From Lachnospiraceae bacterium (lineage in GTDB: Bacteria; Bacillota; Clostridia; Lachnospirales; Lachnospiraceae): DNA of 43,486 nucleotides. Shown here piece by piece: positions 21,563 to 42,103 of the stretch. The notes under the pieces are model-generated. The model was not told where the DNA came from and searched no databases. It saw only the letters and a program-made list of their open reading frames with translations. Position numbers and translations under genes: made by a program. Every line of letters starts with the position of its first letter. Positions within the stretch are counted from its first letter, which is position 1. The DNA is taken from contig JAIDOW010000044.1 in NCBI GenBank assembly GCA_029063085.1, positions 1 to 43,486 of the forward strand, in the 5' to 3' direction.

Positions 21563-21574
21563 GGTGGGATATGA

Positions 21575-22780: not shown

Positions 22781-22819
22781 GTTGGTAATAACAAAGATAT
22801 AGGAGGTGTAAATCAGTAT

Positions 22820-26728: not shown

Positions 26729-27285
26729 AAAAAGTGGTTTTTTTAGATAGGGATGGAACAATTAATAAAGAGGTTGGTTATCTGCATAAAAAGGAAGACT
26801 TTGTATTTATACCGAGAGCGGCACAGGCTATTCATTTACTTAATAATAATGGGTTCATGGTCGTGGTTGTTACCAATCAGGCAGGAGTGGCAAAAGGATA
26901 TTACAAAGAGGAAGATATATTGCAGCTTCACCGATATATGCAAGAAGAATTGAGAAAAGTGGATGCAGGAATTGACGAGTTTTGTTATTGCCCGTATCAC
27001 ATTGACGGGAAGATACATCACTACAAAAAGGATAGTGAGGATCGAAAACCTGGAATTGGAATGTTCCGGGTTATTGAAAAAAAGGTTGAGATTGATAAAG
27101 CAAATTCATGGATGATTGGTGATACGGACAGTGATATACAGGCGGGTATCAATTTTGGCATTCATACGATTTTAGTAGCAACTGGATATGGAAGAAAAAC
27201 ATATGAAAAGGGAAAATCCGGTTATGAACATTATGCCTCAGATCTTTGGGAAGCAGTAAAAATAATTTTATCTGAAACAAAATGA
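26725..27285 (+). CDS. gmhB: D-glycero-D-manno-heptose 1,7-bisphosphate 7-phosphatase
   Basis: A 186-residue HAD-superfamily histidinol-phosphatase-like enzyme. The catalytic motif FLDRDGTIN, motif II VVVTNQAG, a zinc-binding CYCPYH segment and the metal-binding MIGDTDSDIQAG are present. It removes the 7-phosphate to leave heptose 1-phosphate. Its start overlaps the hddA stop (ATGA). With gmhA and hddA it completes the route to D-glycero-alpha-D-manno-heptose 1-phosphate. No GDP-transferring HddC gene follows; instead the next gene encodes a BtrH-like protein. Confidence 0.9.
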   Translation: MKKVVFLDRDGTINKEVGYLHKKEDFVFIPRAAQAIHLLNNNGFMVVVVTNQAGVAKGYYKEEDILQLHRYMQEELRKVDAGIDEFCYCPYHIDGKIHHYKKDSEDRKPGIGMFRVIEKKVEIDKANSWMIGDTDSDIQAGINFGIHTILVATGYGRKTYEKGKSGYEHYASDLWEAVKIILSETK

Positions 27286-27311: not shown

Positions 27312-28877
27312 ATGCATATTCAGTTGAGCCCTGTTACGCATGAATTTAATAACTGTTTTCAGGGACAGATAGAAACTATTGTAGAAGAATACTATCATAA
27401 AAATTATCTGTTGACACAATTTTGCCGATGGACAACGGATTGGGATGTTGTAAATGGAAAAATAGAAAGAGTTTCGGATAAAGGTTTTTTTAATGCGGAA
27501 GAGTTGGAACAGATTGGGATTACACAAGTAGTGGAAACCTGCAAAAATAATCAGGAAATGATTAAAAAAATAAAACAGGAACTAAGCAGGAATATACCTG
27601 TAATGGTTGGAATTCAAGTAACGGATTGCCCGTGGGATCCGAATTATAAAAAACAATTTGAAATGGAACATATTATTATACTGAACGGATGGAATCAGAA
27701 GCAGAGCGCCTTTATCTGTTGTGATGCTACGTATAATAAGCAGAATGTGCTTCTTCCTGTAGAGGAATTTGAAACAGGCTGTACAAATGAATATCGGAGA
27801 CTTATTGAATTTAGTAGAGAAACCGTTTTGTCTGAACAGGAAATGGATTTATTGTTGACACAAAAAGCAAAAGAATTGATTAGTGGAAAGGATTTCCATT
27901 TCAAACGATTAGAAAGACTTGGAGCTTTTTTAATTGAATATGCATGTACTATACATAAAAAAGAAACAAATCTGGATAAAGTTCTCTTTTCAAAAGAATA
28001 TATGGTGATCCGGGACTGTGTGAAAACAAGAGAAATGCTGGTTTTTATGCTCGATTTAAATAATGGGGAAAAGGACAGGATTTTAAAAGAACTTTTTAAA
28101 CTCTGTATGAAAAAGTGGCTGAAAATAAGAAATTTATATGTGAGAGCGGTAACTGTACAGGATGCGGAAAACTATTGGAAGAGGATAGGAACGGGTTTAC
28201 ATGAGATAAAAGAAATAGAAGAAAGAATTGCAAATTATATTGTATATCATGATAAAAATCTGGTGGAAGCATATTTGAACGGAGAGGAAAGAGATTCAAT
28301 AGGTAACTTGATGGAAAGACGGAATAAATCAGAGAAGCCGTATATCATAAATCTAAAGTCGATTTACAATAATAAAGCTTTTGGAAAAGTTGAGGATGGA
28401 GAGACTGCAAGATTTTCAAATCTGGGTGAGTATATGATTGCTCCGCAAGAGGGACATTTTTGTCTGTTAGATAATAATGAGAAACTTTATCTGGATATTC
28501 CGGAGGGAATGGACAATGTACTTTGCAGAAGTCAGCAAATAGAGGTTTTCTTAAGAAATGTAACGGAGCTTTTGGTAATTGGCACTACGGAACTTGGTGG
28601 AGAAAAAGAAGAATTGATTTTGAAATTGGAATCAGGAGAGGAGAGACGATTAAGGTTAGATTTTCCGGAATGGTATACGGAGATTATCTCTGATGAATCA
28701 CTTATCATGCAGCAAAAGGTAATAGCAAGGGAAGCGGACAGGATAGTTATGACATCATTTTCGGGCAAAATCTTTTTAAAGAAGTATTGCCTGTCAGGAG
28801 AAGCAGTTACAGGAATAAGGTTTCCGGAAGATGGAAGAGTTCATATCTTTCAAATAGTAGTATATACAAGGTCTTAA
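27312..28877 (+). CDS. BtrH-like acyltransferase protein (BtrH_N), long form
   Basis: A 521-residue protein. Its N-terminal 250 residues resemble the BtrH_N domain, a papain/C39-peptidase-like fold. BtrH in butirosin biosynthesis moves an acyl chain from a carrier protein onto an aminoglycoside amine. A candidate triad is Cys15 (NNCFQG), His120 (EHIIILNGW) and Asp138 (CCDATYN). The His-Asp distance (18) equals that in the second BtrH-like protein at 39897. The remaining 270 residues are a helical and beta-rich extension I do not recognise. A strong AAGGAGG site precedes the ATG. In this operon, which also encodes a carrier protein and a ligase, it could form the amide bond that releases the product. 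Confidence 0.75.
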   Translation: MHIQLSPVTHEFNNCFQGQIETIVEEYYHKNYLLTQFCRWTTDWDVVNGKIERVSDKGFFNAEELEQIGITQVVETCKNNQEMIKKIKQELSRNIPVMVGIQVTDCPWDPNYKKQFEMEHIIILNGWNQKQSAFICCDATYNKQNVLLPVEEFETGCTNEYRRLIEFSRETVLSEQEMDLLLTQKAKELISGKDFHFKRLERLGAFLIEYACTIHKKETNLDKVLFSKEYMVIRDCVKTREMLVFMLDLNNGEKDRILKELFKLCMKKWLKIRNLYVRAVTVQDAENYWKRIGTGLHEIKEIEERIANYIVYHDKNLVEAYLNGEERDSIGNLMERRNKSEKPYIINLKSIYNNKAFGKVEDGETARFSNLGEYMIAPQEGHFCLLDNNEKLYLDIPEGMDNVLCRSQQIEVFLRNVTELLVIGTTELGGEKEELILKLESGEERRLRLDFPEWYTEIISDESLIMQQKVIAREADRIVMTSFSGKIFLKKYCLSGEAVTGIRFPEDGRVHIFQIVVYTRS

Positions 28878-28918: not shown

Positions 28919-30049
28919 ATGATGGAAGGCATAGTAAATATAGGAATAATCGGATGTGGATGGATTACGGAATATGCACATGTACCAGCATTAGTTAAGG
29001 AAAGTATGTGCAAGGTGGTTTCTCTGTTTGATCCAGATTATGAGAGGGTGGAGAAACTGGGAAAAAAATGGGGGATTTCTAATACATATAATGATTTATG
29101 GGATTTCTTAAATTCTGGTGTAGATGCGGTGATTATTGCTACACCAAATGTATTTCATGTGAAGTATACAATTGAAGCATTAAAAAAGGGGATTCATGTA
29201 TTGTGTGAAAAGCCGGTTGCATTTCATGTGGAAGAAATGGAGCAGATCAGGCAGATATTGCAAGCAGGCAGTGTCGTATATGTGCCGGGATTTGTGAATC
29301 GGTGGAGAGAGGATATTCAGAAGTTGTATCAAATAATACGGGAGGAACAGGTTGGAAAAATAGTAAGGATGGAGGCTGGATGGCTGCGAAAAGCAGGGGT
29401 GCCCCGTCCAGGTACATGGTTTACAAATCGTGAATTGGCTGGTGGAGGAGTGCTGACGGATTTAGGTTCGCACATTGCAGATATCTGCTTATTTTGCTTG
29501 GGTAACCGGGAACCGATTTCTTATAAATTGGAAAGTGCAATTTGTGACAATGAAGAGATAAAAAAAGCAGGAGGGGCAGAGTGGTTTTTGAAAAAAGATG
29601 CCAGTCTGTTTGATATGGATGTAGAGGACAGCATAATAGCAGATGTTATGTTTAAAGATGATGTAGAACTACAGATGAGATTGAGCTGGCTTGCTCCGGT
29701 AGAGGCAGATTGTACGTATTTTAAAATTTATGGGACTCAAGGGGAAATTTTGCTGAAAACCCTGTTCGGTTTTAGCACACAGCGTTTATGGGAAAAAGAT
29801 ATTTTGGAGATTACGAGGAATGGCATGAAGACGGAGCTGATATTTAATGAAGACAATAGCAGTGCAAGGCATGCATTTGAGAAAATGATAAGTTATTTTG
29901 TAGAAGCCGTTATCAATCGCAAAGCAGGGTTTACCAATATTATGGATGCAGGAAAAACGGTTTCCTTGATAGAGAATTTATATATGAACGAAAATCAGGG
30001 GGCGTTAAAGAACAAAAGAAATATAGTTCCCGACTGGCTGGTAGTGTAA
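28919..30049 (+). CDS. Gfo/Idh/MocA oxidoreductase, RifL-type
   Basis: A 376-residue NAD(P)-dependent dehydrogenase. The Rossmann motif IGIIGCGWITEYAHVPAL lies at the start, the EKPVA motif follows (CEKPVAFHVEEM), and the C-terminal alpha/beta substrate domain has GGGVLTDLGSHIADICLF. Family members oxidise sugars, and RifL works with RifK to turn UDP-glucose into UDP-kanosamine. Five consecutive genes here match RifL, N, J, M and K types, so I assign this role by context. It starts 42 bases after the BtrH-like gene. Alternatives are an inositol or other sugar dehydrogenase. Confidence 0.85.
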   Translation: MMEGIVNIGIIGCGWITEYAHVPALVKESMCKVVSLFDPDYERVEKLGKKWGISNTYNDLWDFLNSGVDAVIIATPNVFHVKYTIEALKKGIHVLCEKPVAFHVEEMEQIRQILQAGSVVYVPGFVNRWREDIQKLYQIIREEQVGKIVRMEAGWLRKAGVPRPGTWFTNRELAGGGVLTDLGSHIADICLFCLGNREPISYKLESAICDNEEIKKAGGAEWFLKKDASLFDMDVEDSIIADVMFKDDVELQMRLSWLAPVEADCTYFKIYGTQGEILLKTLFGFSTQRLWEKDILEITRNGMKTELIFNEDNSSARHAFEKMISYFVEAVINRKAGFTNIMDAGKTVSLIENLYMNENQGALKNKRNIVPDWLVV

Positions 30050-30062
30050 AGGGGCAGGAAAA

Positions 30063-31034
30063 ATGAAAACAAACTATTTTTATATCGGGATTGATTTGGG
30101 AGGTACAAATGTCCGCATTATTGCGGTTGAAGAGAGAACGAAGAGAATTCTTGTATACAGGAAAGAAACATTTCAAAAAGCAAATTCAGGAGAGAAGGAG
30201 CTGTCTATTAATATTTTTAGACTTGTGGATGAAGTGTGTGATGTGTGCAAAGCCAAGGAGACTGTAATTGGAGGAATTGGAATGGCACTTGCGGCTTCTT
30301 TTAACAGAAAAACAGGTGTAATAACAAAATGGCCTAATAATCCGAAATGGAATGGAATACATCTAATGGAAGCTTTGGAAAAACGTTATCAGATACCGGT
30401 TGTTTTGGAGGATGATGCAAATGCGGCAGCATTGGGAGAACTGATTGCCGGTAAGGGGATTGGATATCATGATTTAGTATATGTTACGATCAGTACTGGA
30501 ATCGGATGCGGAATTGTAATAAATGATAAGCTGCTGACAGGTCAATGTGGGGGTGCAGGAGAGCTGGGACATATTAAAGTGACAGAAGATACGATACTGT
30601 GTAACTGCGGTGCTTATGGATGTTTGCAGGCAATTGCGTCTGGTCCTGCAATTTTAAAACGTTATCTTGGATTCACAAAACAAAGCAGTCAAAATTTTGA
30701 ATTGCAGCAAGTTGTAGAGTATGCCCAAAGCGGGGACTTGGCGGCAATTGAGACATTTCGAATGGCTGGAGAACATGTTGGTCGTGCAATTGCCAATATT
30801 GCCATATTGCTGGATATTTCTCTTTTTATCTTGGGAGGGGGAGTAATGCGTGCGGGCAGCTTTATCATGTATCCAATAGAAGAAGCTATAAGTGATTCAT
30901 TGCAGGATAAGAAAAAAATCAAGTTGATAGTTTCAGAGGATAGTGATAGGAGTGGTGTATTCGGGGCATTGGCACTCCTTCATCAGCATGTTTCTTTAAA
31001 TAAAAACTATCTTCGGGGGAGGGAATCTAGATGA
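30063..31034 (+). CDS. ROK family sugar kinase, RifN-type
   Basis: A 323-residue ROK-family kinase with the ATP-binding GIDLGGTNVRIIA at the N-terminus, a catalytic-type LEDDANAAALGE, the GELGHIKV segment and a zinc-binding CNCGAYGC (normally CxCGxxGCxE; here the last residue is Q). The ROK family includes glucokinases and RifN, which phosphorylates kanosamine at the 6 position. Its position between RifL-type and RifJ-type genes supports kanosamine 6-kinase. The change E to Q in the last motif residue may alter sugar choice. It starts 13 bases after the previous stop and overlaps the next start (ATGA). Confidence 0.85.
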   Translation: MKTNYFYIGIDLGGTNVRIIAVEERTKRILVYRKETFQKANSGEKELSINIFRLVDEVCDVCKAKETVIGGIGMALAASFNRKTGVITKWPNNPKWNGIHLMEALEKRYQIPVVLEDDANAAALGELIAGKGIGYHDLVYVTISTGIGCGIVINDKLLTGQCGGAGELGHIKVTEDTILCNCGAYGCLQAIASGPAILKRYLGFTKQSSQNFELQQVVEYAQSGDLAAIETFRMAGEHVGRAIANIAILLDISLFILGGGVMRAGSFIMYPIEEAISDSLQDKKKIKLIVSEDSDRSGVFGALALLHQHVSLNKNYLRGRESR

Positions 31035-31495
31035 AGAAAAAGGTTTTGCAGATTGGAGTAATCAATGGTCCTAATATAAATTTATTAGGAATCAGGGAGC
31101 CTGAAATTTATGGAAAGGTTACATGGGAACATATTGAAACACGCTTGCGAAAGCAGGCAGAGAGATTAGGAGTAAAATTGATTACTTTTCAATCTAATCA
31201 TGAAGGGGAGTTGGTTGACTTTATTCAGGAACATTTGGAGTATTTAGATGGTGTTGTGATAAATCCGGCAGCCTTTACAAACACAGGCTATTCTATATTA
31301 GATGTCCTGACGGCCACAGATCTGCCATTTGTTGAGGTACATTTATCCAATATTTTTGCAAGAGGTGGCTGGCATGCAGAAACAATATTTGCAGAAAAGG
31401 CAGTGGGACATATAAACGGATTTCAATCGGATATTTATGAATTGGGTCTACAGGGGATTTATCAGTATCTTATGAAGACAGATTGGGGGGAATAA
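31031..31495 (+). CDS. aroQ: Type II dehydroquinase, aminoDHQ dehydratase (RifJ-type)
   Basis: A 154-residue protein of the type II 3-dehydroquinate dehydratase family (usual length about 145-155). NGPNINLLGIREPEIYG contains the catalytic Tyr27 and Arg22; FQSNHEGELVDFIQ, VVINPAAFTNTG and VEVHLSNIFARGG are the other family blocks. Two usually conserved histidines are replaced: the 'HT' of GAYTHTS is Asn here, and the His in 'SNIHAR' is Phe. These changes suggest an altered substrate such as 5-amino-5-deoxydehydroquinate, as for RifJ, instead of housekeeping shikimate synthesis. It overlaps the ROK kinase gene. Confidence 0.88.
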   Translation: MKKKVLQIGVINGPNINLLGIREPEIYGKVTWEHIETRLRKQAERLGVKLITFQSNHEGELVDFIQEHLEYLDGVVINPAAFTNTGYSILDVLTATDLPFVEVHLSNIFARGGWHAETIFAEKAVGHINGFQSDIYELGLQGIYQYLMKTDWGE

Positions 31496-31502
31496 AAAAC
31501 AG

Positions 31503-32162
31503 ATGAGAAAAGGAGTAATCTTTGATTTTGACGGGGTGATTATTGATTCTTTCAAGGTACAGGAAAAGGCTTTAATGGAAAGTTATAAAATGGTGGTAGG
31601 GGAGGGAAAACCGTCGTTAGAAGAATTTTTTAGTTATAGTGGTGACAGTATTGAAAATATATTCCGGCAAATGCATCTGCCGCTGACCATGGTAGAACCG
31701 TATAAAAAAATCAGCAGAGAAAATCTTGATAGTATCGTTGTTTTTGATGGCATTTTTGAACTTTTAGCATATTTGACAGAGAGGGGATACAAAATCGGAT
31801 TATGTACAGGCAAAAATAGAGAACGTACTGTAGAGATATTGGACTATTTGGAATTGTCGCAATATTTTAACACAGTTGTTTGTTCTGATGATGTGGAACA
31901 CCCTAAACCCGCACCAGACAGTCTGGAAGCTTCCATACGATATCTGGGACTTGATAAGAACAATGCAGTAATGGTTGGTGATGCTCCCAATGACATTCAA
32001 TGTGCAAATAATCTGGATGTGAAATCTATTGCAGTGACCTGGGGGGAAATAAGCAGGGAACGGTTAGAAGAGGAACAGCCAGACTGCATTATAGATAGCG
32101 TAAGTGAACTGGAGGAAGCAATAGAATTATTGTTAAAAACCGAAAGGAGAATTATATGTTAA
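31503..32162 (+). CDS. HAD hydrolase, RifM-type phosphatase
   Basis: A 219-residue HAD-superfamily phosphatase of the phosphoglycolate phosphatase-like group. Motif I is FDFDGVIID with nucleophile Asp and acid-base Asp two residues later. A helical cap follows; motif II is GLCTGKNRERT, motif III has the lysine in HPKPAP, and motif IV is MVGDAPNDIQC. RifM in the rifamycin AHBA pathway is the same kind of enzyme, placed next to RifL/RifN. Here it could release kanosamine from its nucleotide form. It starts 8 bases after the dehydroquinase gene and overlaps the next start. Confidence 0.85.
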   Translation: MRKGVIFDFDGVIIDSFKVQEKALMESYKMVVGEGKPSLEEFFSYSGDSIENIFRQMHLPLTMVEPYKKISRENLDSIVVFDGIFELLAYLTERGYKIGLCTGKNRERTVEILDYLELSQYFNTVVCSDDVEHPKPAPDSLEASIRYLGLDKNNAVMVGDAPNDIQCANNLDVKSIAVTWGEISRERLEEEQPDCIIDSVSELEEAIELLLKTERRIIC

Positions 32163-33298
32163 AAATACCGGTATGGCCTTATGCAGACCAAAAAGAAGAA
32201 GAAAAGTTAAAGGAGGTTTTGAATTCCTCAGTATGGTGGAGAAATCCGGGTACACAGGTAAAGGCCTTTGAACAGGAATATGCGGATTTTTGTCACTGTA
32301 ATGGTGCGATTTCTACTGCAAATGGAACGGTTGCAATTGAGATTGCATTAAAAGCCTTAAAAATTGGAGCCGGTGATGAAGTGATTGTTCCGGCATTTAC
32401 ATTTTATTCCACGGTATCGGCAGTTTTGGCAGTGGGAGCAATTCCGGTTTTGGTAGATGTGTCAGCTGATGATTATTGTATAAATTCAGAATCGATCAGA
32501 AAGGAAATCAGTGATAAAACAAAAGCTGTCATAGTAGTGCACATGGCAGGAAATGTAGTGGATATGGATGCCGTGAATGCAGTTGCCAGAGAATATGATT
32601 TATATGTTATTGAAGATGCAGCACATGCACATGGGGCAGAATATAAAGGAAAAAAAGCAGGTTCATTAGGAATATGCGGTACATTTAGTTTTCAAAATGC
32701 TAAGCTGCTGACGGCTGGAGAAGGCGGAATGCTTACAAGTAATGATAGAGAATTTTTGAATATGGCATTTCTGGAATCTAATTGTGGGCGTGCCGAAGGG
32801 GATACGGACTATCAGCATATTTTGGTGGGAACAAATGCCAGATTATCTGAATTTCAAGGTGCGGTGCTAAGAATGCAGCTGGCCAGACTGAATGAGCAAT
32901 TAAGGAAACGGGATAACAATTATCAATATTTGAAAATGCAGTTAGAGAAAATAGATGGAATTGTACTACAGAAAATAGGGAAAGATGTGACATTAAACTC
33001 TCATTATATGGTTATGTTTTACTATGATGAAAAGTATTTTAAAGGTTCCAGAAAGGAATTTGTGCAATATTTGAGGGAAAATGGAATCCCCTGTAACCGT
33101 GCCTTTGAGGCACTTCACAGACTTCCGGTATTTCAAAGTTTAGATAAAGAACGATTTAAAATAGCAAAGGAGGGTGGATGTCCTAATTCTCGGCGGATAG
33201 CGGATACGGTTGTGTGCCTGAATCATAATATTTTATTAGGTGACAAGGTATTGATGGAAGAAATCGCAGATGTGATTAGGCAATATAGAAAAGAATGA
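32156..33298 (+). CDS. DegT-family AHBA synthase-like enzyme, copy 1
   Basis: A 380-residue pyridoxal-phosphate enzyme of the DegT/DnrJ/EryC1 family. Compared from memory with RifK, it keeps the SVWWR entry motif, EVIVPAFTFYSTVSAV, VVHMAGN, EDAAHAHGA, FSFQNAKLLTAGEGG with the PLP lysine Lys183, and NSHYMVMFYY. AHBA synthase both aminates the UDP-keto-sugar (with RifL) and aromatizes aminodehydroshikimate to AHBA. AAAGGAGA precedes the ATG. It overlaps the HAD gene by seven bases and the PIG-L gene by four. A second paralog is at 37913. Confidence 0.9.
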   Translation: MLKIPVWPYADQKEEEKLKEVLNSSVWWRNPGTQVKAFEQEYADFCHCNGAISTANGTVAIEIALKALKIGAGDEVIVPAFTFYSTVSAVLAVGAIPVLVDVSADDYCINSESIRKEISDKTKAVIVVHMAGNVVDMDAVNAVAREYDLYVIEDAAHAHGAEYKGKKAGSLGICGTFSFQNAKLLTAGEGGMLTSNDREFLNMAFLESNCGRAEGDTDYQHILVGTNARLSEFQGAVLRMQLARLNEQLRKRDNNYQYLKMQLEKIDGIVLQKIGKDVTLNSHYMVMFYYDEKYFKGSRKEFVQYLRENGIPCNRAFEALHRLPVFQSLDKERFKIAKEGGCPNSRRIADTVVCLNHNILLGDKVLMEEIADVIRQYRKE

Positions 33299-34044
33299 TC
33301 GGAGAAATCAGAGTGGAGAAAAAATATATTTTAATGTCACCTCATCCGGATGATACCTGTTTTTCGTTAGCCGGTACAATATTAAAAAATAATGTAAATA
33401 TACAATTTGTTAATTGTGATGTATTTACTAAAAAAAAGTACAATATCCTTCATGTGCCTGAGGATAGGGCATATGACATTATAATAGATGAGGAAGCCGA
33501 AGCAGTTAGGAAAATGAATATTGCTAATATCATGCTTGGATATGAAGATTCTTATACGAGAAGCAGGAGTAAACTAAGTAATATTTTGGGAAAAGAAATC
33601 AGCGAAGCAGAGATTATACAGGAGACTATATATAAGGAAGTAAAACAGAGTATTTGCAGGGTAATAAACGATCTTCATCCGGACGCGGTATTTGCACCTT
33701 TAGGATGTGGATGGCATAAAGACCATTTAATTGTAAAAAAATCCATAGAAGAATGCTTTAAAAATGAAGAATGGTTTACCCTATATTTTTATGAGGATAT
33801 GCCGTACTCAGCTAATTCTTCCTGGCTGGCAAAAGGATTAGAGAATGCCTGTGCTAAGTATATCTTAGAAGAAAAAATCATTAAAATAGATGATGTCATA
33901 GAACAAAAAAATGAATTACTCCAAATATATAAAACGCAGATAAAATCGAGGGATATCAGGATGATGAATGCATATATGAGAAATATTAAGGAGGGTTTTA
34001 TATGCGAAAGATTTTGGAAAGTAAAGCAGGAAAGGAGGAATTAA
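33295..34044 (+). CDS. PIG-L/LmbE-family N-acetylglucosaminyl deacetylase
   Basis: A 249-residue zinc-dependent deacetylase. The HPDD zinc motif (His17, Asp19, Asp20 in MSPHPDDTCF) and the second metal site in GWHKDHLIV are both intact. Family members remove N-acetyl groups from GlcNAc-linked small molecules (MshB, BtrD, MitC). In mitomycin biosynthesis MitC deacetylates GlcNAc on carrier-bound AHBA. Here the enzyme sits between an AHBA-synthase gene and the carrier protein gene. The start may be ATG 33295 (overlap ATGA) or GTG 33313, which has GGAGA at 33301-33305. Confidence 0.88.
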   Translation: MIGEIRVEKKYILMSPHPDDTCFSLAGTILKNNVNIQFVNCDVFTKKKYNILHVPEDRAYDIIIDEEAEAVRKMNIANIMLGYEDSYTRSRSKLSNILGKEISEAEIIQETIYKEVKQSICRVINDLHPDAVFAPLGCGWHKDHLIVKKSIEECFKNEEWFTLYFYEDMPYSANSSWLAKGLENACAKYILEEKIIKIDDVIEQKNELLQIYKTQIKSRDIRMMNAYMRNIKEGFICERFWKVKQERRN

Positions 34045-34047
34045 AGC

Positions 34048-35223
34048 ATGGATTTTTTAAAGAATGAAGAGGGAAAGATAAAAATGCTTTTTAATGATTA
34101 TGTAATCAAGTTTGATGTATGTAATTTTAGGTGTGATTATTGCCTGAATTTATTAGAACCCAAAAACACAGAGCTTTGGATGGATACAAAGCAAAAAATG
34201 ATAGAGGAGCATGATCATTATAAAAGGGATATTCTGGCTGATGAATTAAGAAATGAGAACGTATATGAATGTCAAAATGAGTTGGGGAAGAGAATTAACC
34301 GAATGTTAGATTCTTTTGAAGAGATTATAGATACACCTATTTTAAGACTTAGTGGAGGTGAATTATTTGCGATAAGAAATATAGAAGAGTTTATTGTGGA
34401 GCGTGGGGAAAAATATGCTGTGGTGCAGATTGTTACTAACGGTTATTATCTGGATGAAAAACTTATTGCCAGATTAAAAAACTGTGGCAATGTACATATA
34501 CATTTTTCTTTGGATGGGCATACATTGGAGATGAACCAAAAGAGAGTGAAGAACTGGCAGGTGCAGGAGCGCTTGCTTGGGAATCTGGATATGTTGATAC
34601 AAAATGATATTCCGGTGGAAATCAATAGTGTAATGTCAAATGCCAATACAAAAGATTATCCGGAATTTTTAGATTATCTGTTAAGATACGAGGACAAATT
34701 AGTGGCATTTCCGTCACCGATACGTGGTGTAGCATTAGAGGAACATCAGCCAGACTTTGTAAGCACCCGGGTATTTGAAAAAGTGGCAGATGACTATACG
34801 AAATACAGTCGTATTTTACCGCCAAAACAATATTTTGAACGTCTGGCGGCTTTTTACAGGGACGGTATCCGCAAAGATCAATGCGTTCTGCCGGAATTTT
34901 GCATACAGTCTTTAGATGATGGGATGATTACCCCGTGTGCACTGGGATGGACAAGGCAGTTAGGAAATCTGTTTGCAGAAGATTTAAAAACAGTTCAGGA
35001 CAGGATTGGTCATGACAAATTATATAAGCTTTTGTGTGGCGAGAAAATACGGATGGACTATTGTAAAAAGTGTTATTCAACCTATGAGGTCTGTAACCTG
35101 TTCTTTAATGACATATTATCTATTGAAGAGATGAGAGGGATGCCATTGTATTCGGATCGAAGAGTATGCAAAAGACTCATGGAATTAAAGGAGCATAGGG
35201 AGAAAAATAAGCCACGGTTCTGA
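34048..35223 (+). CDS. Radical SAM/SPASM enzyme
   Basis: A 391-residue radical S-adenosylmethionine protein. The cluster-binding motif is Cys25-x3-Cys29-x2-Cys32 (CNFRCDYC), followed by a TIM-barrel with LRLSGGELF and VTNGYYL. The C-terminal part has additional cysteines (ITPC, MDYCKKCYSTYEVC) that could hold auxiliary Fe-S clusters as in SPASM/twitch enzymes such as BtrN. It lies between the deacetylase and the acyl carrier protein genes. Mitomycin clusters also contain radical SAM genes (MitD, MmcD). A dehydrogenation, epimerization or ring-forming reaction on the glycosyl-AHBA intermediate is possible, but the substrate is unknown. AAAGGAGG precedes the ATG. Confidence 0.88.
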   Translation: MDFLKNEEGKIKMLFNDYVIKFDVCNFRCDYCLNLLEPKNTELWMDTKQKMIEEHDHYKRDILADELRNENVYECQNELGKRINRMLDSFEEIIDTPILRLSGGELFAIRNIEEFIVERGEKYAVVQIVTNGYYLDEKLIARLKNCGNVHIHFSLDGHTLEMNQKRVKNWQVQERLLGNLDMLIQNDIPVEINSVMSNANTKDYPEFLDYLLRYEDKLVAFPSPIRGVALEEHQPDFVSTRVFEKVADDYTKYSRILPPKQYFERLAAFYRDGIRKDQCVLPEFCIQSLDDGMITPCALGWTRQLGNLFAEDLKTVQDRIGHDKLYKLLCGEKIRMDYCKKCYSTYEVCNLFFNDILSIEEMRGMPLYSDRRVCKRLMELKEHREKNKPRF

Positions 35224-35250
35224 TGAAAGCATTTTTAGGAGGATAAAACT

Positions 35251-35508
35251 ATGAGTAGAGAAGAAATTGAAATCAAGGTTAAGCAGTTGATTATTAGTGA
35301 GTTAGAGTTGGAAGAAGAATATACGCAAAAGGATATTACAGATGATTTTCTGGCAGTATTTAATATAAATTCCATAGATGCCATGGATTTACTGTTACAA
35401 ATAGAAGGGGAATTTGATATTGAATTACCGGATGAGTGTTTTAATGCACAGATTTTCAAATCAGTTGACGACGTGATAGATATGATAAAGGAGTTGTTAG
35501 AACAGTGA
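35251..35508 (+). CDS. Acyl carrier protein
   Basis: An 85-residue acidic four-helix carrier protein. Ser41 in NINSIDAMDLL is the expected 4'-phosphopantetheine site (the usual DSL motif is altered to NSI). The FDIELPDECF turn and the KSVDDVIDMIKELL helix are typical of ACPs. A strong TTAGGAGG site precedes the start. It sits directly before the GT2 gene, which overlaps it, and two genes before the adenylating ligase. In mitomycin biosynthesis the equivalent protein MmcB carries AHBA. A phosphopantetheinyl transferase is not encoded here, so the host enzyme would be needed. Confidence 0.92.
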   Translation: MSREEIEIKVKQLIISELELEEEYTQKDITDDFLAVFNINSIDAMDLLLQIEGEFDIELPDECFNAQIFKSVDDVIDMIKELLEQ

Positions 35509-36419
35509 CACAAAGGAAAAATAACGGAAAAATAAGTGTGGTGATTCCTACATTTAATCATTTAAGCCGTTTGAAGCTTACACTGGCATCTATTGATATT
35601 CAAAAAATGGATGTTGATAAATTTGAAGTGATTATTGTGAATGATGGATCTACAGATGGTTCGGCAGAGTATCTGAAAAAGCGTAAAACGGAGTGGAATT
35701 TAAGGGTGATCAATCAAAAAAATGCCGGTAGGGCAGCTGCCAGAAACAGAGGTGCATTGGAAGCGGAAGGGGAAATTATTTTATTTTGCGATGATGATTG
35801 TATCCTTTCCCCTGATTTTATTGCGGCACATTATCACCACCAAAAAGAGTATCCTAGAATCCTGCATGGGAGGATTGTTACATTAACACAGATGAAATTT
35901 TTTGAGGATCCCTCCCGGGGCATACTGGTATGCCATAATGAAGGCTTACAGGCAAAGGATTCTCTGATGAAAAGGATTATAACAGAAAGTGATATAAAGA
36001 CGGAATTTTTTTCAAAAATAGCACCGAACCAAAGATTAAATTCGATTGAAAGATTAATTAAGGAGATTTTTGACAGAAAAAAAGAAACCTTATATTGGAT
36101 AGGCTTTACCGGTGGGAATGTATCAATGCCGCTGACATGGATGAAGTCTGATGAGATGTTCAATGTAGAATTTGGAAGAGCGTGGGGATGTGAAGATTTA
36201 GAATTGGGATACCGGCTGGGTAAAAAAGCATATCCGTTTGCATATTTGGATGAGGCGGTCAATTATCATATAGCACATGCACACTTTGATTTTAAGCAAG
36301 AAGTTGAAACCTCTTTTTCTAATTTTGCTGCTCTGCATGATGATGAGAGTGTCTGCTATTTAAAAGAGTATCTATTGGGAAATATAGATGTTCAAACAAT
36401 GATGAAGCAGAGTGTGTAG
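35505..36419 (+). CDS. GT2 glycosyltransferase, MitB-type by context
   Basis: A 304-residue GT-A-fold glycosyltransferase with PTFNHLSRLKLTLASID, VIIVNDGSTDGSAEYL, NAGRAAARNRGALEA and the metal-binding FCDDDCILSPDFI. WGCEDLELGYRL is the family's usual ED catalytic-base motif. The start is GTG at 35505, overlapping the ACP stop. In mitomycin, MitB attaches GlcNAc to the amine of AHBA while it is bound to the carrier; the adjacent ACP, ligase and deacetylase genes suggest the same role. It is distinct from the first cluster glycosyltransferase at 22820, which lies near the heptose genes. Confidence 0.87.
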   Translation: MTQRKNNGKISVVIPTFNHLSRLKLTLASIDIQKMDVDKFEVIIVNDGSTDGSAEYLKKRKTEWNLRVINQKNAGRAAARNRGALEAEGEIILFCDDDCILSPDFIAAHYHHQKEYPRILHGRIVTLTQMKFFEDPSRGILVCHNEGLQAKDSLMKRIITESDIKTEFFSKIAPNQRLNSIERLIKEIFDRKKETLYWIGFTGGNVSMPLTWMKSDEMFNVEFGRAWGCEDLELGYRLGKKAYPFAYLDEAVNYHIAHAHFDFKQEVETSFSNFAALHDDESVCYLKEYLLGNIDVQTMMKQSV

Positions 36420-36504
36420 GTGATTTAGATATATTGTACAACAGGCAGTAGCGAAAACAGAGCTTCGCTGCTGACTGACAGAATACATGAAAGAGGTGAT
36501 TACT

Positions 36505-37878
36505 ATGTTTGATTGGATGGAACAATATAATCAGGGGAAAGAAAATAGCTGCACGCTGAAGAATCAGACATATGAAATTACATATGGAGAGCTTGCTGAT
36601 TTCATTGCATATAGGCAGGAAGAATTGAAGGAGATTTATAAATCAGGTGATAAGGTTATTTTACAGGTAAAAAGTCAAATGGCTTTTGCAATTGATTTTT
36701 TATGTTATGTTTCGATTGGATGCTGGGTTCTTCCGGTTCCAGGGGATATGAAGAAGGAGGAATTGACGGATTTACATAATATTACCGGTGGAGATATTCA
36801 GGTAAGTAATGAAAATACGATAAAGCAGTGTATTGCAGTTTGGGGTGGCAATAGAAAAGAAGTCAGATGGGATAAACATAATGGTGGAATTTTACATATG
36901 ACTTCCGGCACAACGGGAAAAACAAAGTTATGTATTCGGGACTTTGAAAGCTTATTAGCTGAAGGAAACAGTTATATTCAATGCTTTGGTATCCATCAGC
37001 AGGACAGGATATTAAGTGTCTGTCCGATCACGCATTCTTTTGCATTTGGCGGAGCTTTTCTACCTGCCCTTATTTCCGGTGTGGATATTTATGTTGTTGA
37101 ACAGTTTGTACCCAGAAAGGTATTGAAAACAATCAGTGAAGAAAAGATGACAATTGTGTTGATGGTCCCGGCAATTGCTGATGCGATGGCGGCTGTGGAT
37201 AGAAATAATAAATATGATATTTCATCCTTGAGAATTGGATTGGTTGGTGCAGGAAAAACCTATAGTCATTTATTTAATAGTTACAAGGAGAAATATAATA
37301 TTATCTTGTCTGGTAATTATGGCAGTACGGAAACAGGAGGATTAGCCTCAAGGGTTTCCGGTGAAAATTATGAGTCTGTGGGTAAAACTATGCCCGGAGT
37401 AGAAATACAGATCCGCAGTAAGAACGGAATGATATTGAAGTGTGGACAGGAAGGGGAAATTTATGTAAAATCCCCCGCAATGTTTAGCGGTTATTTTGGA
37501 GAATCGGAATCTACGTTTGATGAGAACGGTTATTTTAAAATGGGTGACATTGGAAAAATAGATGAAGAAGGTTATGTGTATATATTGGGGCGGAGTAAAC
37601 ACTTGATTAAAATAGGCGGGAAAACAGTGAATCCCAGAGAAATTGAATCGGTTATCATGAAACATACAAAGATAACAGACTGTGTTATTGTGGGAAAAAC
37701 GGATGAGAAGAGCATAGAGTATATGAAGGCTTATATTGTGGCAGAAGATATTTCCAAGGAAGAAGTGAGGTTATATCTGTCACAGCATTTAAGCAGCAGG
37801 CAGATACCAAGAGTAATTGAACTTGTAAGATCCATTAAAAAGAATGCAATTGGAAAAGTGGATTATTCTGTTTTATAA
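36505..37878 (+). CDS. Acyl-adenylate ligase, MitE-type by context
   Basis: A 457-residue ANL-superfamily ligase that should activate a carboxylic acid with ATP and load it on the carrier protein. The P-loop MTSGTTGKTKL, A5 motif YGSTETGG, the hinge GRSKHLIKIGGKTVNPREIE and the invariant lysine Lys451 in GKVDY are intact. Its length (457) is shorter than typical acyl-CoA synthetases (about 500-550) and fits acyl-ACP ligases. The start at 36505 is preferred because AAGAGGTGA (36491-36499) precedes it. Because an AHBA pathway surrounds it, AHBA is the expected acid, as for MitE. No condensation domain is fused. Confidence 0.88.
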   Translation: MFDWMEQYNQGKENSCTLKNQTYEITYGELADFIAYRQEELKEIYKSGDKVILQVKSQMAFAIDFLCYVSIGCWVLPVPGDMKKEELTDLHNITGGDIQVSNENTIKQCIAVWGGNRKEVRWDKHNGGILHMTSGTTGKTKLCIRDFESLLAEGNSYIQCFGIHQQDRILSVCPITHSFAFGGAFLPALISGVDIYVVEQFVPRKVLKTISEEKMTIVLMVPAIADAMAAVDRNNKYDISSLRIGLVGAGKTYSHLFNSYKEKYNIILSGNYGSTETGGLASRVSGENYESVGKTMPGVEIQIRSKNGMILKCGQEGEIYVKSPAMFSGYFGESESTFDENGYFKMGDIGKIDEEGYVYILGRSKHLIKIGGKTVNPREIESVIMKHTKITDCVIVGKTDEKSIEYMKAYIVAEDISKEEVRLYLSQHLSSRQIPRVIELVRSIKKNAIGKVDYSVL

Positions 37879-37912
37879 GCAGAAGATACATTTAAGAAAG
37901 GAAGAAAAATAT

Positions 37913-39133
37913 ATGAATGAAAAGATGAGTAAGCTTGCAGTAAATGGAGGCATACCGTATAAGCAGGATAGCTTTCCGAAGTGGCCCTATGGTGATGAAA
38001 AAGAAATTGCATTATTGACAGAGGTTGTACAGAGCGGTAAGTGGTGGCGAACCACTGGTCGTAAAGTGATTGAATTTGAAGAAAAGTTTGCCACAATGCA
38101 GGAATGTGAATTTTGTTTAGGTGTTACCAGTGGGACACATGCATTGGAAATATCCATGTCTGCACTGGGCATATCCCATGGTGATGAAGTGATTATACCG
38201 GCATTTTCTTATATTTCTACCTGTTCGGCAGTGATTTATTGTAATGCAGTTCCTGTTTTGGTGGATGTAGATCCTGAAACGTTTTGCATGGATCCGAAAG
38301 CCTTTGAACAGGCGATAACACCAAAAACCAAGGCAGTTATTCCGGTACATATGGCCGGACATTCTTGTAATATGGATGAAATTTGTAGAATTGCTAAAAA
38401 ACATGGGATATACGTTATCGAAGATGCGGCACATGGGCATAACGGGAGCTATAAAGGGAAAAAGCTGGGATCTTTTGGTGATATGGCAATCTTTAGCTTT
38501 CAAAACGGTAAGCTGATGACATGTGGAGAGGGAGGTGCTATTGTCACAAATAATAAAAATTTGTATGAACAGGCCTATTTGATACATGGTGTGGGGAGAC
38601 CGAAAGATGATAAGGGTTATACGCATACTGTTGTAGGCTCTACCTGTAGAATGAATGAATTTCAGGGAGCTGTACTGTTGGCACAAATGGACAGAGTGGA
38701 AGAGATGATGAGGAGAAGAATTGAAAATGCCCAATATTTGGATAGTTTGATGAATAAGGTTGATGGAATTAAACCGCAAAAGCCTGCTGATTATGCGGTT
38801 GAGGGTATGACGCACTATATGTACATGTTTTATTATGAAGACAGCAAATTTGGGGGGCATCCCAGACAGGAGTTTGTAGAAGCACTGAAAGCGGAAGGAA
38901 TACCTGCATTCATTTCATTTCCGGTACTATCTAAGACGCAGTTTTTTATGGAAAATAATTTTATGGGAAAAATACCGGGATATGATTATAAGAAGGAAAA
39001 GGATTTGCCTAATGCCAATAAAATAGGTGAGAAGGTGGTATGTATTCCCCAATATACATTGTTAGGAGCACAAAAAGATATGGAAGATATTGCAGGCGCA
39101 GTTTTGAAGATTCAGGAAGCATTTTGTCAATAG
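37913..39133 (+). CDS. DegT-family AHBA synthase-like enzyme, copy 2
   Basis: A 406-residue PLP enzyme related to copy 1 at 32156 but clearly diverged. It keeps KWWRTTG, VTSGTHALEISM, EVIIPAFSYIST, PVHMAGH, EDAAHGHNG, FSFQNGKLMTCGEGG with the PLP lysine Lys200, and RMNEFQGAVLLAQM. These match the AHBA synthase signature, even more closely in FSFQNGKLMT. GAAAGGAAG precedes the ATG at 37913. Two such enzymes may share the work: one aminates the UDP-keto-sugar with the RifL-type partner, the other aromatizes. It lies 34 bases after the ligase gene. Confidence 0.9.
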   Translation: MNEKMSKLAVNGGIPYKQDSFPKWPYGDEKEIALLTEVVQSGKWWRTTGRKVIEFEEKFATMQECEFCLGVTSGTHALEISMSALGISHGDEVIIPAFSYISTCSAVIYCNAVPVLVDVDPETFCMDPKAFEQAITPKTKAVIPVHMAGHSCNMDEICRIAKKHGIYVIEDAAHGHNGSYKGKKLGSFGDMAIFSFQNGKLMTCGEGGAIVTNNKNLYEQAYLIHGVGRPKDDKGYTHTVVGSTCRMNEFQGAVLLAQMDRVEEMMRRRIENAQYLDSLMNKVDGIKPQKPADYAVEGMTHYMYMFYYEDSKFGGHPRQEFVEALKAEGIPAFISFPVLSKTQFFMENNFMGKIPGYDYKKEKDLPNANKIGEKVVCIPQYTLLGAQKDMEDIAGAVLKIQEAFCQ

Positions 39134-39179
39134 GAAATGAAATCCAATAAAAGTTCTTGGAGCAAAAGGAGAAAGTAAT

Positions 39180-39893
39180 ATGAATATTTTAGACGAAAAA
39201 ATCACTGCGAATTTAATGGGACCGAATTGTCTGCGGATGATGGAAGAGACATTACAGTATGTGGATATTAAAAAGGATATAAAAATACTTGATTTGGGAT
39301 GTGGGAAAGCACTTACATCCATCTATCTGGCAAAACAGTATGAGGTAAAGGTATTTGCCAATGATTTGTGGATTCCGCCTACTGATAATATGAAAAGAAT
39401 AGAGGAATACAAAGTAGAAGACAAAGTGTTTCCAATAAAGGCAGAAGCAAGAAATCTGCCATATGCAGATGAGTTTTTTGATATGATCGTATCTTATGGT
39501 GCATATCATTATTTTGGAACAGATGAGAATTATCTGAATACATATCTGCTTCCGTTGCTTAAGCCAAATGGGTATTTTGTTATGTCTGGTCCGGGTCTGG
39601 TAAAGGAATTTGAGGAAGGTATACCAGACAGCCTGAAGCCATATTGGAATGAAAAGGAGAATACCACATTCCATTCATTGGAATACTGGAAAAAGTTGTG
39701 GGAGAAAAACCAAAGCTTGGTAATTGAAAAAGCATGGAATCTTGAGTGCTGTGAGTCTGCGTGGAATGACTGGTTAAACAGTAAAAATATAATGGCAAGA
39801 AAAGACTGCAAATTTTGGAATGCAGATACCGATAAGCAGCTAGCCATTATTGGACTGATAGCGAGAAAAACAGTAGAGAAGAAAGAGGTATGA
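39180..39893 (+). CDS. SAM-dependent methyltransferase
   Basis: A 237-residue class I methyltransferase. The SAM-binding motif ILDLGCGKALTS (about residues 36-47), an acidic post-I region (ANDLW) and the motif IV-like MIVSYGAYHYF are visible; the C-terminal 70 residues complete the cap. AAAGGAG precedes the ATG. It could be an N- or O-methyltransferase acting on the aromatic amine, a hydroxyl group or a sugar. It is placed between the second AHBA-synthase gene and a BtrH-like gene, so it is probably a tailoring enzyme. The target atom cannot be read from the sequence. Confidence 0.85.
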   Translation: MNILDEKITANLMGPNCLRMMEETLQYVDIKKDIKILDLGCGKALTSIYLAKQYEVKVFANDLWIPPTDNMKRIEEYKVEDKVFPIKAEARNLPYADEFFDMIVSYGAYHYFGTDENYLNTYLLPLLKPNGYFVMSGPGLVKEFEEGIPDSLKPYWNEKENTTFHSLEYWKKLWEKNQSLVIEKAWNLECCESAWNDWLNSKNIMARKDCKFWNADTDKQLAIIGLIARKTVEKKEV

Positions 39894-39896
39894 TAA

Positions 39897-40958
39897 ATGG
39901 AGGCAGAATACATAGGTTTGACTCAATATGAATTATGCCAGGGACACATATGCTTTCTGGCATGCCTCGCAGATCTTGCCAGAAATATGGGGACAGATAT
40001 TTCAGAGGAGATTATTTTGGGGTTATCAACGGGGCTGCAATTTAAAACGGAGGCAGACAAGAAGGGCAATCTGGTAAGTGCAAGCATTGAATGTGCCAAT
40101 ATGGTAGATGACGAAAAGGAAATTAGCAGATGCCTGGAGCTGTTTGGGATTCGTTTAGGGGTTATGGATATGAGGGATGTTACCAAGGGATTAAAATTGA
40201 TCAAGGAAAAGCTGGCATGTGGGATTCCCGTTATGGTTTCTGTAGATATTTATTATATGGATTATCATATTGAGTATGGGAAAAAGCATGGTGATCATGA
40301 TATTGTTGTGTTTGGAATAGATGAACAAAAGGGGCTGGCATATATTGCAGATAATTATATTCAGACAATAGCTGGAACAACATTCAAAGGTGCAATAAGC
40401 ATAGGGCATTTACTGGATGCAATGCAGTCAGGGATGGGCACTGACGGTACTTGGGCATATATAATTTTCTTGGAATCTTCAGGAGAGGAAGCTGTTATAA
40501 ACAAAGAATATATCTGTAGGAAAATAAAAGAAAATGCGGAGAGGGTGGCAGACAAAACAATGCAAAATGGAAATGTTTTGAAAAGCATCCGTTTGCTGAG
40601 CGGATACTTTTCAACAATAGGTGATTGGAAGACAGATGATATTTTATGTATGGAATTGGAGAAGATCAGTTCAAGAATTGTCGGGTTTGCAGGACCTGCT
40701 CCCACAAGGTTATTATATGCCCGGTTTTTGGAGTGGGCATCCGGGCAATACTCCTTATCCATGCCTCAAAGTATAGTGGAAGGATATATCGACTTGAGTA
40801 AACAGTGGAAGATAGCCGGAAATTTATTGATCAAGATGCTGTATGTTAAACAGCAATCTATATTGCAGAGGATCATAAGCCGCTTGGAAGATATTGAAAA
40901 AAAGGAACTGGAATTAGCTGCAAAATGTATTGAATTTGCAACGGACCCCAATATTTAA
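39897..40958 (+). CDS. BtrH-like acyltransferase protein, short form
   Basis: A 353-residue protein with a BtrH_N-like papain/C39-like fold. Catalytic candidates are Cys14 (or Cys19) in YELCQGHICF, His134 in HGDHDIVVFG and Asp152 in YIADNYIQ. The His-to-Asp distance is 18, as in the longer BtrH-like protein at 27312, but overall similarity by eye is low. The C-terminal 150 residues are helical. It starts four bases after the methyltransferase stop. Two such proteins in a pathway with a single carrier protein is unusual; they may act on different acceptors or form a heteromer. Confidence 0.72.
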   Translation: MEAEYIGLTQYELCQGHICFLACLADLARNMGTDISEEIILGLSTGLQFKTEADKKGNLVSASIECANMVDDEKEISRCLELFGIRLGVMDMRDVTKGLKLIKEKLACGIPVMVSVDIYYMDYHIEYGKKHGDHDIVVFGIDEQKGLAYIADNYIQTIAGTTFKGAISIGHLLDAMQSGMGTDGTWAYIIFLESSGEEAVINKEYICRKIKENAERVADKTMQNGNVLKSIRLLSGYFSTIGDWKTDDILCMELEKISSRIVGFAGPAPTRLLYARFLEWASGQYSLSMPQSIVEGYIDLSKQWKIAGNLLIKMLYVKQQSILQRIISRLEDIEKKELELAAKCIEFATDPNI

Positions 40959-41023: not shown

Positions 41024-42103
41024 ATGAAAATAATTCGTGTGAACATGGAACAACGAGGTTATGATATTTGCATTCATTCTGATTTAGCATGTTTATTGCA
41101 TAGGATTATAAAATTATTAAAACATCAGCGTATTTTAATTGTAACAGATCAAACTGTGCATCAGTTATATGGAGAATGTATTAAATCTTATTTTTATGAT
41201 GAAATGATAGAGGTACATCAATATATTATGCCTGCTGGTGAAAAATCAAAACAGCTGGAAACAGTACAAAATATCTATACCTTATTATTGCAGAAACAGT
41301 TTGACAAAGAGGATATGATTCTGGCATTCGGAGGAGGTGTAGTTGGTGATACTGCCGGTTTTGCGGCATCAACTTATCAAAGAGGGATAGGGTTTATTCA
41401 ATTGCCGACTACATTGTTGTCACAAGTAGACAGCAGTGTGGGAGGGAAAGTTGGGGTAAACTGCAAAATGGTCAAAAATGCAATAGGGAGTATTTACCAG
41501 CCTGAAATAGTATGTATTAACCCGCAGTTTTTAAAGACATTGGATAAAAGGCAGCTGCGAAATGGTTTGGCAGAAATAGTAGTGCATTCTATTATTGCAA
41601 GTGAAGGGCTTTTTGCGTATGTTGAGGAATATGCAGAAAACATTTTAAAATGTGATACCGAAGTGATGGAATATCTTATAGAAGAAAATTGCAGGATAAA
41701 GCGGGATGTAGTAATGCAGGATGAGCATGATAAAGGAAGAAGAGCCATATTAAATTTTGGACATACGATAGGACATGCAGTTGAGGCATGCAGTGATTAT
41801 ACATTATTACATGGGGAAGCAGTTTCTGTTGGTATAATGGGGGCAATAGAGTTAGCAGTATATCTGAAAATGCTGGCATTAGATGAATATAAAAGAATAA
41901 AAAGCCTGCTTGTAACAATAGGTTTACCGGTAAAAGTTAAAGGAATATCTGTTGATGAAATTTATTTGAAAATGCTAAATGATAAAAAGAGAAGAATGGA
42001 AGAGTTCCGGTTTGTTTTGCCTTGTACAATTGGTGAAGTTAAAATTATTGAGTATTCAGACAAAGAAGTATTACTTAGAATATTAAACCGGCTGGTTGAT
42101 TAG
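41024..42103 (+). CDS. aroB: AroB-family sugar-phosphate cyclase (RifG-type)
   Basis: A 359-residue member of the dehydroquinate synthase family. NAD-binding GGGVVGDTAGFAAST, PTTLLSQVDSSVGGKVGVN, and the zinc ligands Glu184 (GLAEIV), His247 (FGHTIGH) and His263 (LLHGEAV) are conserved, so catalysis is likely. The substrate-side segment normally read as 'EVIKY' is EIVVHS here, lacking the lysine. This departure argues for a non-housekeeping substrate, such as aminoDAHP as for RifG, or another cyclitol precursor. It is the last gene of the operon; a weak terminator follows. Confidence 0.88.
   Translation: MKIIRVNMEQRGYDICIHSDLACLLHRIIKLLKHQRILIVTDQTVHQLYGECIKSYFYDEMIEVHQYIMPAGEKSKQLETVQNIYTLLLQKQFDKEDMILAFGGGVVGDTAGFAASTYQRGIGFIQLPTTLLSQVDSSVGGKVGVNCKMVKNAIGSIYQPEIVCINPQFLKTLDKRQLRNGLAEIVVHSIIASEGLFAYVEEYAENILKCDTEVMEYLIEENCRIKRDVVMQDEHDKGRRAILNFGHTIGHAVEACSDYTLLHGEAVSVGIMGAIELAVYLKMLALDEYKRIKSLLVTIGLPVKVKGISVDEIYLKMLNDKKRRMEEFRFVLPCTIGEVKIIEYSDKEVLLRILNRLVD

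Follow-up and report, generated by a model that had tools for sequence, protein, structure and literature searches.

A gene run with relatives of early mitomycin assembly proteins

The window analysed here is a 43,486-nucleotide stretch of a Lachnospiraceae genome (GCA_029063085.1, contig JAIDOW010000044.1), and it carries a run of 20 genes on a single strand (+) from 22769 to 42103, with intergenic gaps of at most 80 bases. The middle of this run (33295-37878) consists of five intact open reading frames (ORFs), all on the + strand. In order, they encode a PIG-L deacetylase, a radical S-adenosylmethionine (SAM) enzyme, an acyl carrier protein (ACP), a GT2 glycosyltransferase (GT2b, as distinct from GT2a, the first gene of the run) and an acyl-adenylate ligase, with DegT-type genes on either side (Table 1). 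An earlier, sequence-only reading had compared this block with the early assembly of mitomycin. Its coordinates for the block are exact to the base, and Pfam confirms the families. It had also placed the block between two genes for synthases of 3-amino-5-hydroxybenzoate (AHBA), and the solved structure nearest to both DegT neighbours is indeed the AHBA synthase 1b9h.

In mitomycin biosynthesis, as described in excerpts of PMC9570651 (also PMC8621148), MitE loads AHBA on MmcB, MitB adds N-acetylglucosamine (GlcNAc) from its uridine diphosphate (UDP) form, and MitC deacetylates; MitF together with MitD processes the deacetylated product. The sequence-only reading gives the MitE, MitB and MitC steps in the same order.

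A genome scan with an AHBA-synthase alignment matched 346 stretches, 186 of them encoding relatives. Of these, the 80 highest-scoring were retained and correspond to 79 loci; adding three plasmid loci gave the 82 that were compared with the window proteins. Matches to GT2b, the radical SAM enzyme and the ligase lie near an AHBA synthase in two of the 82, from Streptomyces roseoverticillatus (L023) and S. klenkii (L067). Micromonospora marina (L022) has GT2b and ligase matches, and Streptosporangium nondiastaticum (L034) has a GT2b match at a contig end. The S. roseoverticillatus contig has the gene order AHBA synthase, GT2, PIG-L, radical SAM, ligase, short-chain dehydrogenase/reductase (SDR). 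It is treated as mitomycin-type because it also encodes matches to the mitomycin-binding protein (1kmz, 6.7e-75) and to MitM (8zc8, 9.4e-159). This cluster (G547 C28, L105-L107), with relatives in S. klenkii and Streptosporangium nondiastaticum, serves as our reference; it is mitomycin-type by gene content alone, and Mit names within it are assigned by gene order and family. Plasmid AHBA loci were rejected as a mitomycin reference, the three examined (H1-H3 of 20 records) having polyketide synthases nearby.

E-values of the comparison with the reference are for 24 proteins only, and genome-wide values are given apart. The radical SAM enzyme is 29% identical to the MitD-like protein over 371 amino acids (aa) (4.5e-67; 1.5e-56 in a search of the whole S. 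roseoverticillatus genome), GT2b is 29% identical to the MitB-like protein over 306 aa (5.2e-35; 3.8e-22 genome-wide), and the ligase is 25% identical to the MitE-like protein over 453 aa (1.1e-37). Searched in the window's genome at E ≤ 1, MitB reports GT2b as its sole match (2.4e-22), and GT2a, which this search does not report, was rejected as the MitB counterpart. MitE finds the ligase first (6.8e-22; next 2.5e-06). In five of five genomes the top match of GT2b falls in the mit-type cluster; its lead is clear in three of them and narrow in the other two. GT2b and MitB have DDD and WGCEDxE in common, and their shared top solved relative is chondroitin synthase (for MitB over 60 residues, 1.6e-08). 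The ligase retains AMP-binding motifs and a late GK, and the PIG-L protein retains HxDD and a distal DH, both invariant across the PIG-L alignment. The block is therefore related to the first stage of mitomycin assembly in sequence and not merely in family names. MitE-like ligase, MitB-like GT2 and MitD-like radical SAM, all features of mitosane clusters, are present and strongly matched. The match is weaker for the MitC counterpart (20% over 190 aa, 3.7e-09) and the MmcB counterpart (5e-05).

The radical SAM enzyme is rare. Its own genome is the only one with a match among 144 genomes of relatives at 1e-20 and among 398 genomes of the phylum at 1e-15. A class search with a MitD-family model at 1e-20 recovers 3 of 391 genomes: that of the window and a pair from a single genus. 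One of the pair is probably Ruminiclostridium papyrosolvens, which is a row of the model and would reach that E-value by construction. At 1e-10, the model is matched in 48 of 397 genomes of the same family, the best apart from the window's own reaching 6.0e-24 along part of the model; we take these matches as ordinary radical SAM proteins. Ten AHBA-bearing genomes were selected from the 82 loci for their promise. At 0.001, five of them have a match to the window enzyme: a Lachnospiraceae metagenome-assembled genome (MAG), R. papyrosolvens and three actinobacteria with a mit-type block. None was found at that threshold in the others (a Bacteroidetes genome, two Paenibacillus, Lachnoclostridium phytofermentans and Micromonospora). 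There are no relatives on plasmids at 1e-8 and none in viral contigs.

In a tree with 19 loci as outgroup, one branch (88/94) separates the seven MitD-family rows from the 19 other radical SAM rows. CxxxCxxC and four further cysteines are invariant over the seven, the latter fitting one predicted auxiliary cluster. The ligase tree was limited to 40 rows, which include copies of MitE rows and a short piece from this genome. In it, the window ligase clusters with three further ligases from clostridia, at 96/91 for three rows and 91/75 for four.

Probable AHBA supply genes

Most of the AHBA biosynthesis genes expected of mitosane clusters are present in the run. By Pfam and NCBIfam, RifL-, RifN-, RifJ-, RifM- and RifG-type genes all lie inside it, with roles that we take to be those of Gfo/Idh (RifL), ROK (RifN), dehydroquinate dehydratase (RifJ), HAD (RifM) and dehydroquinate synthase (RifG) proteins. 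The top NCBIfam model of the HAD phosphatase is AHBA_synth_RP TIGR01454 (165.5 bits, under the cut-off of 246.65), and the protein is 41% identical over 199 aa to its counterpart in the S. roseoverticillatus mitomycin-type cluster. The Gfo/Idh protein is 35-46% identical to those adjoining AHBA-type DegT genes in four loci (L018-L021). These loci, from the Bacteroidetes genome, the two Paenibacillus and L. phytofermentans, have sets of AHBA-type genes, with no MitD-like enzyme found.

DegT 1 and DegT 2 share 42% identity. In L018-L021, both match the same gene best, DegT 2 at 54-63% and DegT 1 at 43-44%. The loci of the Lachnospiraceae MAG and R. papyrosolvens encode one DegT of each kind (59-62%), and DegT 1 is 59-62% identical to one of the two in each. 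DegT 2 is probably the AHBA synthase proper, judging from these identities, and DegT 1 is perhaps a transaminase making UDP-kanosamine. We rejected the possibility that both are ordinary sugar transaminases because RifG/J/L/M/N-type genes accompany them and because each has 1b9h as its closest solved structure.

Gene table and surroundings

Table 1. Genes of the 22769-42103 run, in order.
Gene product	Coordinates	Strand	Supporting match or remark
GT2 glycosyltransferase GT2a	22769..23821	+	PF00535 1.7e-21; first gene of run
UDP-N-acetylhexosamine pyrophosphorylase-like nucleotidyltransferase	23818..25062	+	PF01704 2.8e-40; 1vm8 4.5e-75; possible UDP-sugar donor source
Sedoheptulose-7-phosphate isomerase-like (GmhA)	25143..25730	+	TIGR00441 7e-26, below cut-off
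Heptose-7-phosphate kinase-like (HddA)	25727..26728	+	NF049969 1.7e-49, below cut-off
Heptose-1,7-bisphosphate phosphatase-like (GmhB)	26725..27285	+	NF006506 1.4e-47, 161.6 bits vs cut-off 178
C39/BtrH-like protein, candidate acyltransferase	27312..28877	+	PF13529 3.4e-05, PF14399 1.8e-04; weak match
Gfo/Idh oxidoreductase, RifL type	28919..30049	+	PF01408 4.8e-26
ROK kinase, RifN (kanosamine kinase) type	30063..31034	+	PF00480 6.7e-66
Type II (amino)dehydroquinate dehydratase, RifJ type	31031..31495	+	PF01220 1.6e-46
HAD phosphatase, RifM type	31503..32162	+	TIGR01454 1.2e-48, below cut-off
AHBA synthase-type DegT 1	32156..33298	+	1b9h 1.1e-81
PIG-L deacetylase, MitC counterpart	33295..34044	+	PF02585 3.5e-11
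Radical SAM enzyme, MitD counterpart	34048..35223	+	Radical_SAM PF04055 4.6e-12
Acyl carrier protein, MmcB counterpart	35251..35508	+	PP-binding PF00550 4.8e-06
GT2 glycosyltransferase GT2b, MitB counterpart	35505..36419	+	Glycos_transf_2 PF00535 1.5e-26
Acyl-adenylate ligase, MitE counterpart	36487..37878	+	AMP-binding PF00501 2.8e-41
AHBA synthase-type DegT 2, probably AHBA synthase proper	37844..39133	+	1b9h 3.3e-83
Class I methyltransferase	39180..39893	+	PF08241 1e-10
BtrH-type acyltransferase, candidate for ACP release	39897..40958	+	PF14399 1.4e-20; NF053550 DarH_acyl 1.8e-09, below cut-off
(Amino)dehydroquinate synthase, RifG type	41024..42103	+	PF01761 2.4e-45; TIGR01357 aroB 371 bits, above cut-off

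As read from translations, a LytTR-type response regulator and sensor pair lies upstream of the run (20825-22687), and a MarR-type regulator and a TauE/SafE-like membrane protein lie downstream (42109-43415). A terminator-like hairpin follows the regulator pair (22686-22706); 11 such hairpins were found against 8.5 expected, so that alone it is no evidence. No obvious dedicated exporter was seen within the 20 genes. Three successive large serine recombinases, also read from translations, lie about 14 kb upstream of the cluster (3491-8391) and mark a possible mobile island. The first is 38-43% identical to proteins of four phage records from human faecal samples, and a search of window positions 1-22700 against plasmids found no matching plasmid.

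Related clostridial clusters

Mitomycin-like clusters more complete than the window run occur in two clostridial genomes. That of the uncultured Lachnospiraceae MAG, much the fuller by comparison with the window, encodes MitB, MitD, MitE, PIG-L and ACP counterparts with AHBA genes (L102:8729-19999 and L016:1-15058). In one of its ORFs (L102:8729-10471), a RifM-like phosphatase and a MitD-like radical SAM domain are fused, which ties AHBA-pathway and MitD-like functions together. Three phosphodiesterase-family proteins are 22-34% identical to four places of the reference, and one B12-radical SAM protein is 40-41% identical to it (L102:18626-19999 and L016:15-1010 overlap and are the same gene). 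The N and C parts of a carbamoyltransferase occupy two successive ORFs (33% and 51%) with a stop between them (L016:2612-4249). The reference MitE (L106:10530-12845) carries one more domain at its C-terminus, which includes a DWLTHGG stretch; in the MAG, this stretch occurs in a separate ORF directly after the ligase (L102:16919-17812). A second MAG locus of the MitD type (L114 and L104) encodes radical SAM, ligase, ACP, U32 and BtrH-like proteins. It also has an SDR with a match to MitF at 3e-23; among its called genes there is no match to the window GT2b or PIG-L.

R. papyrosolvens C7 has a cassette (L112 and L103) with ligase (41%), GT2b (41%), radical SAM (34%), ACP and PIG-L counterparts. 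It also encodes a carbamoyltransferase (39%), U32 proteins and three proteins 31-33% identical to the reference B12-radical SAM, one of which was checked by Pfam. The DegT genes of AHBA type are on a separate contig (L017). U32-family proteins recur in the clostridial clusters (L112:7891-8910, L103:872-1921 and L104:3790-4731). Oxygen-independent hydroxylation of aromatic rings is known for some U32 proteins, and by analogy those of the clostridial clusters could replace oxygenases of the mitomycin path.

Proposed pathway

We read the run as a small biosynthetic cluster that starts like mitomycin assembly, by homology of its central part, and then diverges to another ending, and give this interpretation a probability of roughly 0.68. 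The intact genes and their sequence relationship to the MitB, MitD and MitE counterparts are observed; the reactions below, the sugar, the acceptor and the product are inferred. Aminoshikimate genes would make AHBA, which the ligase would adenylate and load on the ACP. GT2b would then add an N-acetylhexosamine, most likely GlcNAc from UDP-GlcNAc, to ACP-bound AHBA, presumably on the AHBA amine by the N-linkage that we take to hold for mitomycin. The PIG-L enzyme would deacetylate the carrier-bound glycoside, and the MitD-like radical SAM enzyme would then rearrange the sugar part. Once finished, the acyl group may leave the ACP for an acceptor by way of one or both BtrH/C39-like proteins, in place of the MitF-dependent and late mitosane steps. 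GT2a and the heptose genes would supply a heptosyl unit, and the methyltransferase would decorate the product. Most likely, then, the block builds carrier-bound glucosaminyl-AHBA, and the bacterium probably makes a related, so far unknown sugar-aromatic compound.

Several observations weigh against this model. The SDR of the MitF type is absent from the operon, while mitomycin sugar processing uses MitF with MitD; because of this the radical SAM enzyme may do something else. A class II DAHP (3-deoxy-D-arabino-heptulosonate 7-phosphate) synthase (PF01474), which we take to be the RifH-type aminoDAHP synthase, was found in none of three genomes including this one, in a search that left out class I DAHP synthases. 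The ACP matches the MmcB-like protein at 29% over 45 residues only. MitC, searched in the window's genome, finds the PIG-L protein as its sole match at a weak E of 0.042, and these reverse searches scored few candidates (two for MitB, four for MitE and one for MitC). The two narrow GT2b leads are 7.7e-13 against 4.2e-12, for a gene cut by a contig end, and 3.3e-11 against 1.9e-09. In the trees, the MitD-family branch is not starred, and MitE is not placed beside the clostridial ligases, with long branches. Finally, the operon can make heptose phosphate, which the pyrophosphorylase-like enzyme could uridylylate.

This last point touches the identity of the sugar. The earlier proposal of carrier-bound glucosaminyl-AHBA gains from the MitB-like GT2b and the pyrophosphorylase-like gene, while the heptose genes suggest a second candidate sugar. 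The nucleotidyltransferase is far closer to the UDP-GlcNAc pyrophosphorylase 1vm8 than to the best UDP-glucose pyrophosphorylase (5.5e-11), and such a gene within the run fits a UDP-N-acetylhexosamine donor. The GmhA-, HddA- and GmhB-like genes may leave UDP-heptose as an alternative donor. GlcNAc is likely as the donor sugar, short of proven because the operon also seems to make heptose phosphate.

Could the product be a heptosyl-AHBA, with GT2b adding operon-made UDP-heptose to AHBA-ACP and the PIG-L enzyme acting on another amide? The heptose genes and the nucleotidyltransferase share one run, and the R. papyrosolvens relative encodes, close to its cassette, a ManC-like nucleotidyltransferase as well as a member of the GT9 heptosyltransferase family. 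However, the window nucleotidyltransferase is closest to UDP-GlcNAc pyrophosphorylases, and PIG-L family enzymes are known for sugar de-N-acetylation. In addition, the MitB counterpart is GT2b and not GT2a, and MitB uses UDP-GlcNAc in the excerpt of PMC9570651. We regard heptosyl-AHBA as unlikely.

So, is this a mitosane cluster? Among the 20 genes, Pfam detects none with an SDR, carbamoyltransferase, B12-binding, phosphodiesterase or glyoxalase-type domain, including the domains expected of the late carbamoyltransferase, B12-radical SAM and phosphodiesterases. A MitF-like SDR is thus missing from the run by Pfam, and the 24 window proteins, checked place by place against the reference at a threshold of 1e-6, miss the MitF place as well as those of the phosphodiesterases, B12-radical SAM and carbamoyltransferase. 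These searches covered the window genes and did not extend to the remainder of the genome. The mitomycin-binding protein has no match among the same 24 proteins at 1e-6, in a search that left out the rest of the window and genome. For the late gene MitM there is a weak general methyltransferase match of a window protein (1.2e-07). Absence at 1e-6 is weak evidence, since the window PIG-L, ACP and RifN-type proteins also miss the reference, and the Pfam scans carry the claim. The run has instead two BtrH/C39-like proteins, one clear and one weak (Table 1), and these suggest that an amine or alcohol takes over the acyl group carried by the ACP.

Because late-type domains were not found in the run, we do not file the window as a mitosane cluster, and the suggestion in the sequence-only reading of a mitosane-related, DNA-alkylating product is unsupported. 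A true mitosane or FR900482-like DNA alkylator would need late enzymes elsewhere in the genome or their replacement by unrelated anaerobic enzymes. The run does have the early set with its MitD-like enzyme, and related clostridial clusters carry late mitomycin-like genes, but the BtrH/C39-like proteins and heptose genes point to a different ending, and we consider such a product distinctly improbable. Very improbable indeed is a chance neighbourhood, that is, a surface-polysaccharide or carrier-lipid operon with five genes unrelated in purpose and DegT proteins for amino sugars: each family is common in sugar operons and heptose genes are present, but the DegT genes are accompanied by those of RifJ, RifG, RifL, RifM and RifN type, MitB gives best matches both ways, and the MitD-like enzyme is rare.

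Implications

A cluster that opens like mitomycin assembly and ends differently joins relatives of the first-step enzymes of an anticancer drug to different finishing genes. The literature found describes early mitomycin assembly, in which a radical SAM enzyme acts on an aryl glycoside of an amino sugar bound to a carrier, from Streptomyces only. Among the matches listed for mitomycin or AHBA genes in clostridia, the gut or anaerobes, no title or abstract start concerns such a block. The clostridial counterparts would be independent versions of the poorly understood MitD step, and the window offers a natural test of the role of MitD without a neighbouring MitF. They also give reason to seek AHBA-amino-sugar metabolites, possibly DNA-reactive, from anaerobes, and a named strain, R. 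papyrosolvens C7, makes this testable. The wider clostridial family is a more striking result than the window block itself. More tentatively, anaerobic Clostridia may hold a family of mitomycin-related pathways in which the window represents a BtrH-released, heptosylated AHBA-amino-sugar branch and sister clusters lead to mitosane-like alkylators by oxygen-independent late steps.

Comparison with known systems

Ansamycin clusters of the rifamycin type resemble the window in their AHBA pathway genes, but type I polyketide synthases lie near the three examined and none is in the window run. Butirosin biosynthesis uses BtrH-type acyl transfer, and the window likewise has a BtrH_N domain protein beside an ACP pathway; unlike butirosin clusters, the 20-gene run has no recognised butirosin-type aminoglycoside set.

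The mitomycin (mit/mmc) type shares with the window the AHBA genes and counterparts of MitA, MitB, MitD and MitE, together with weakly matched counterparts of MitC and MmcB. The window run differs in lacking SDR, carbamoyltransferase, B12-radical SAM and phosphodiesterase domains and, at 1e-6, a match to the mitomycin-binding protein, and its ligase lacks the C-terminal domain of about 300 residues. It adds the heptose genes, the UDP-GlcNAc-pyrophosphorylase-like enzyme, a methyltransferase and the BtrH/C39-like proteins.

The MAG cluster (L102 and L016) has MitB, MitD, MitE, PIG-L and ACP counterparts, two AHBA-type DegT genes and RifJ, RifL and RifN types, as in the window. It differs in its B12-radical SAM protein, three phosphodiesterase-family proteins and carbamoyltransferase parts, and the window heptose genes are unmatched among the MAG locus genes called. 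The R. papyrosolvens cluster differs in its carbamoyltransferase, B12-radical SAM-like and U32 proteins and in having its DegT genes on another contig, and it shares with the window the ligase, GT2b, radical SAM enzyme, ACP and PIG-L protein.

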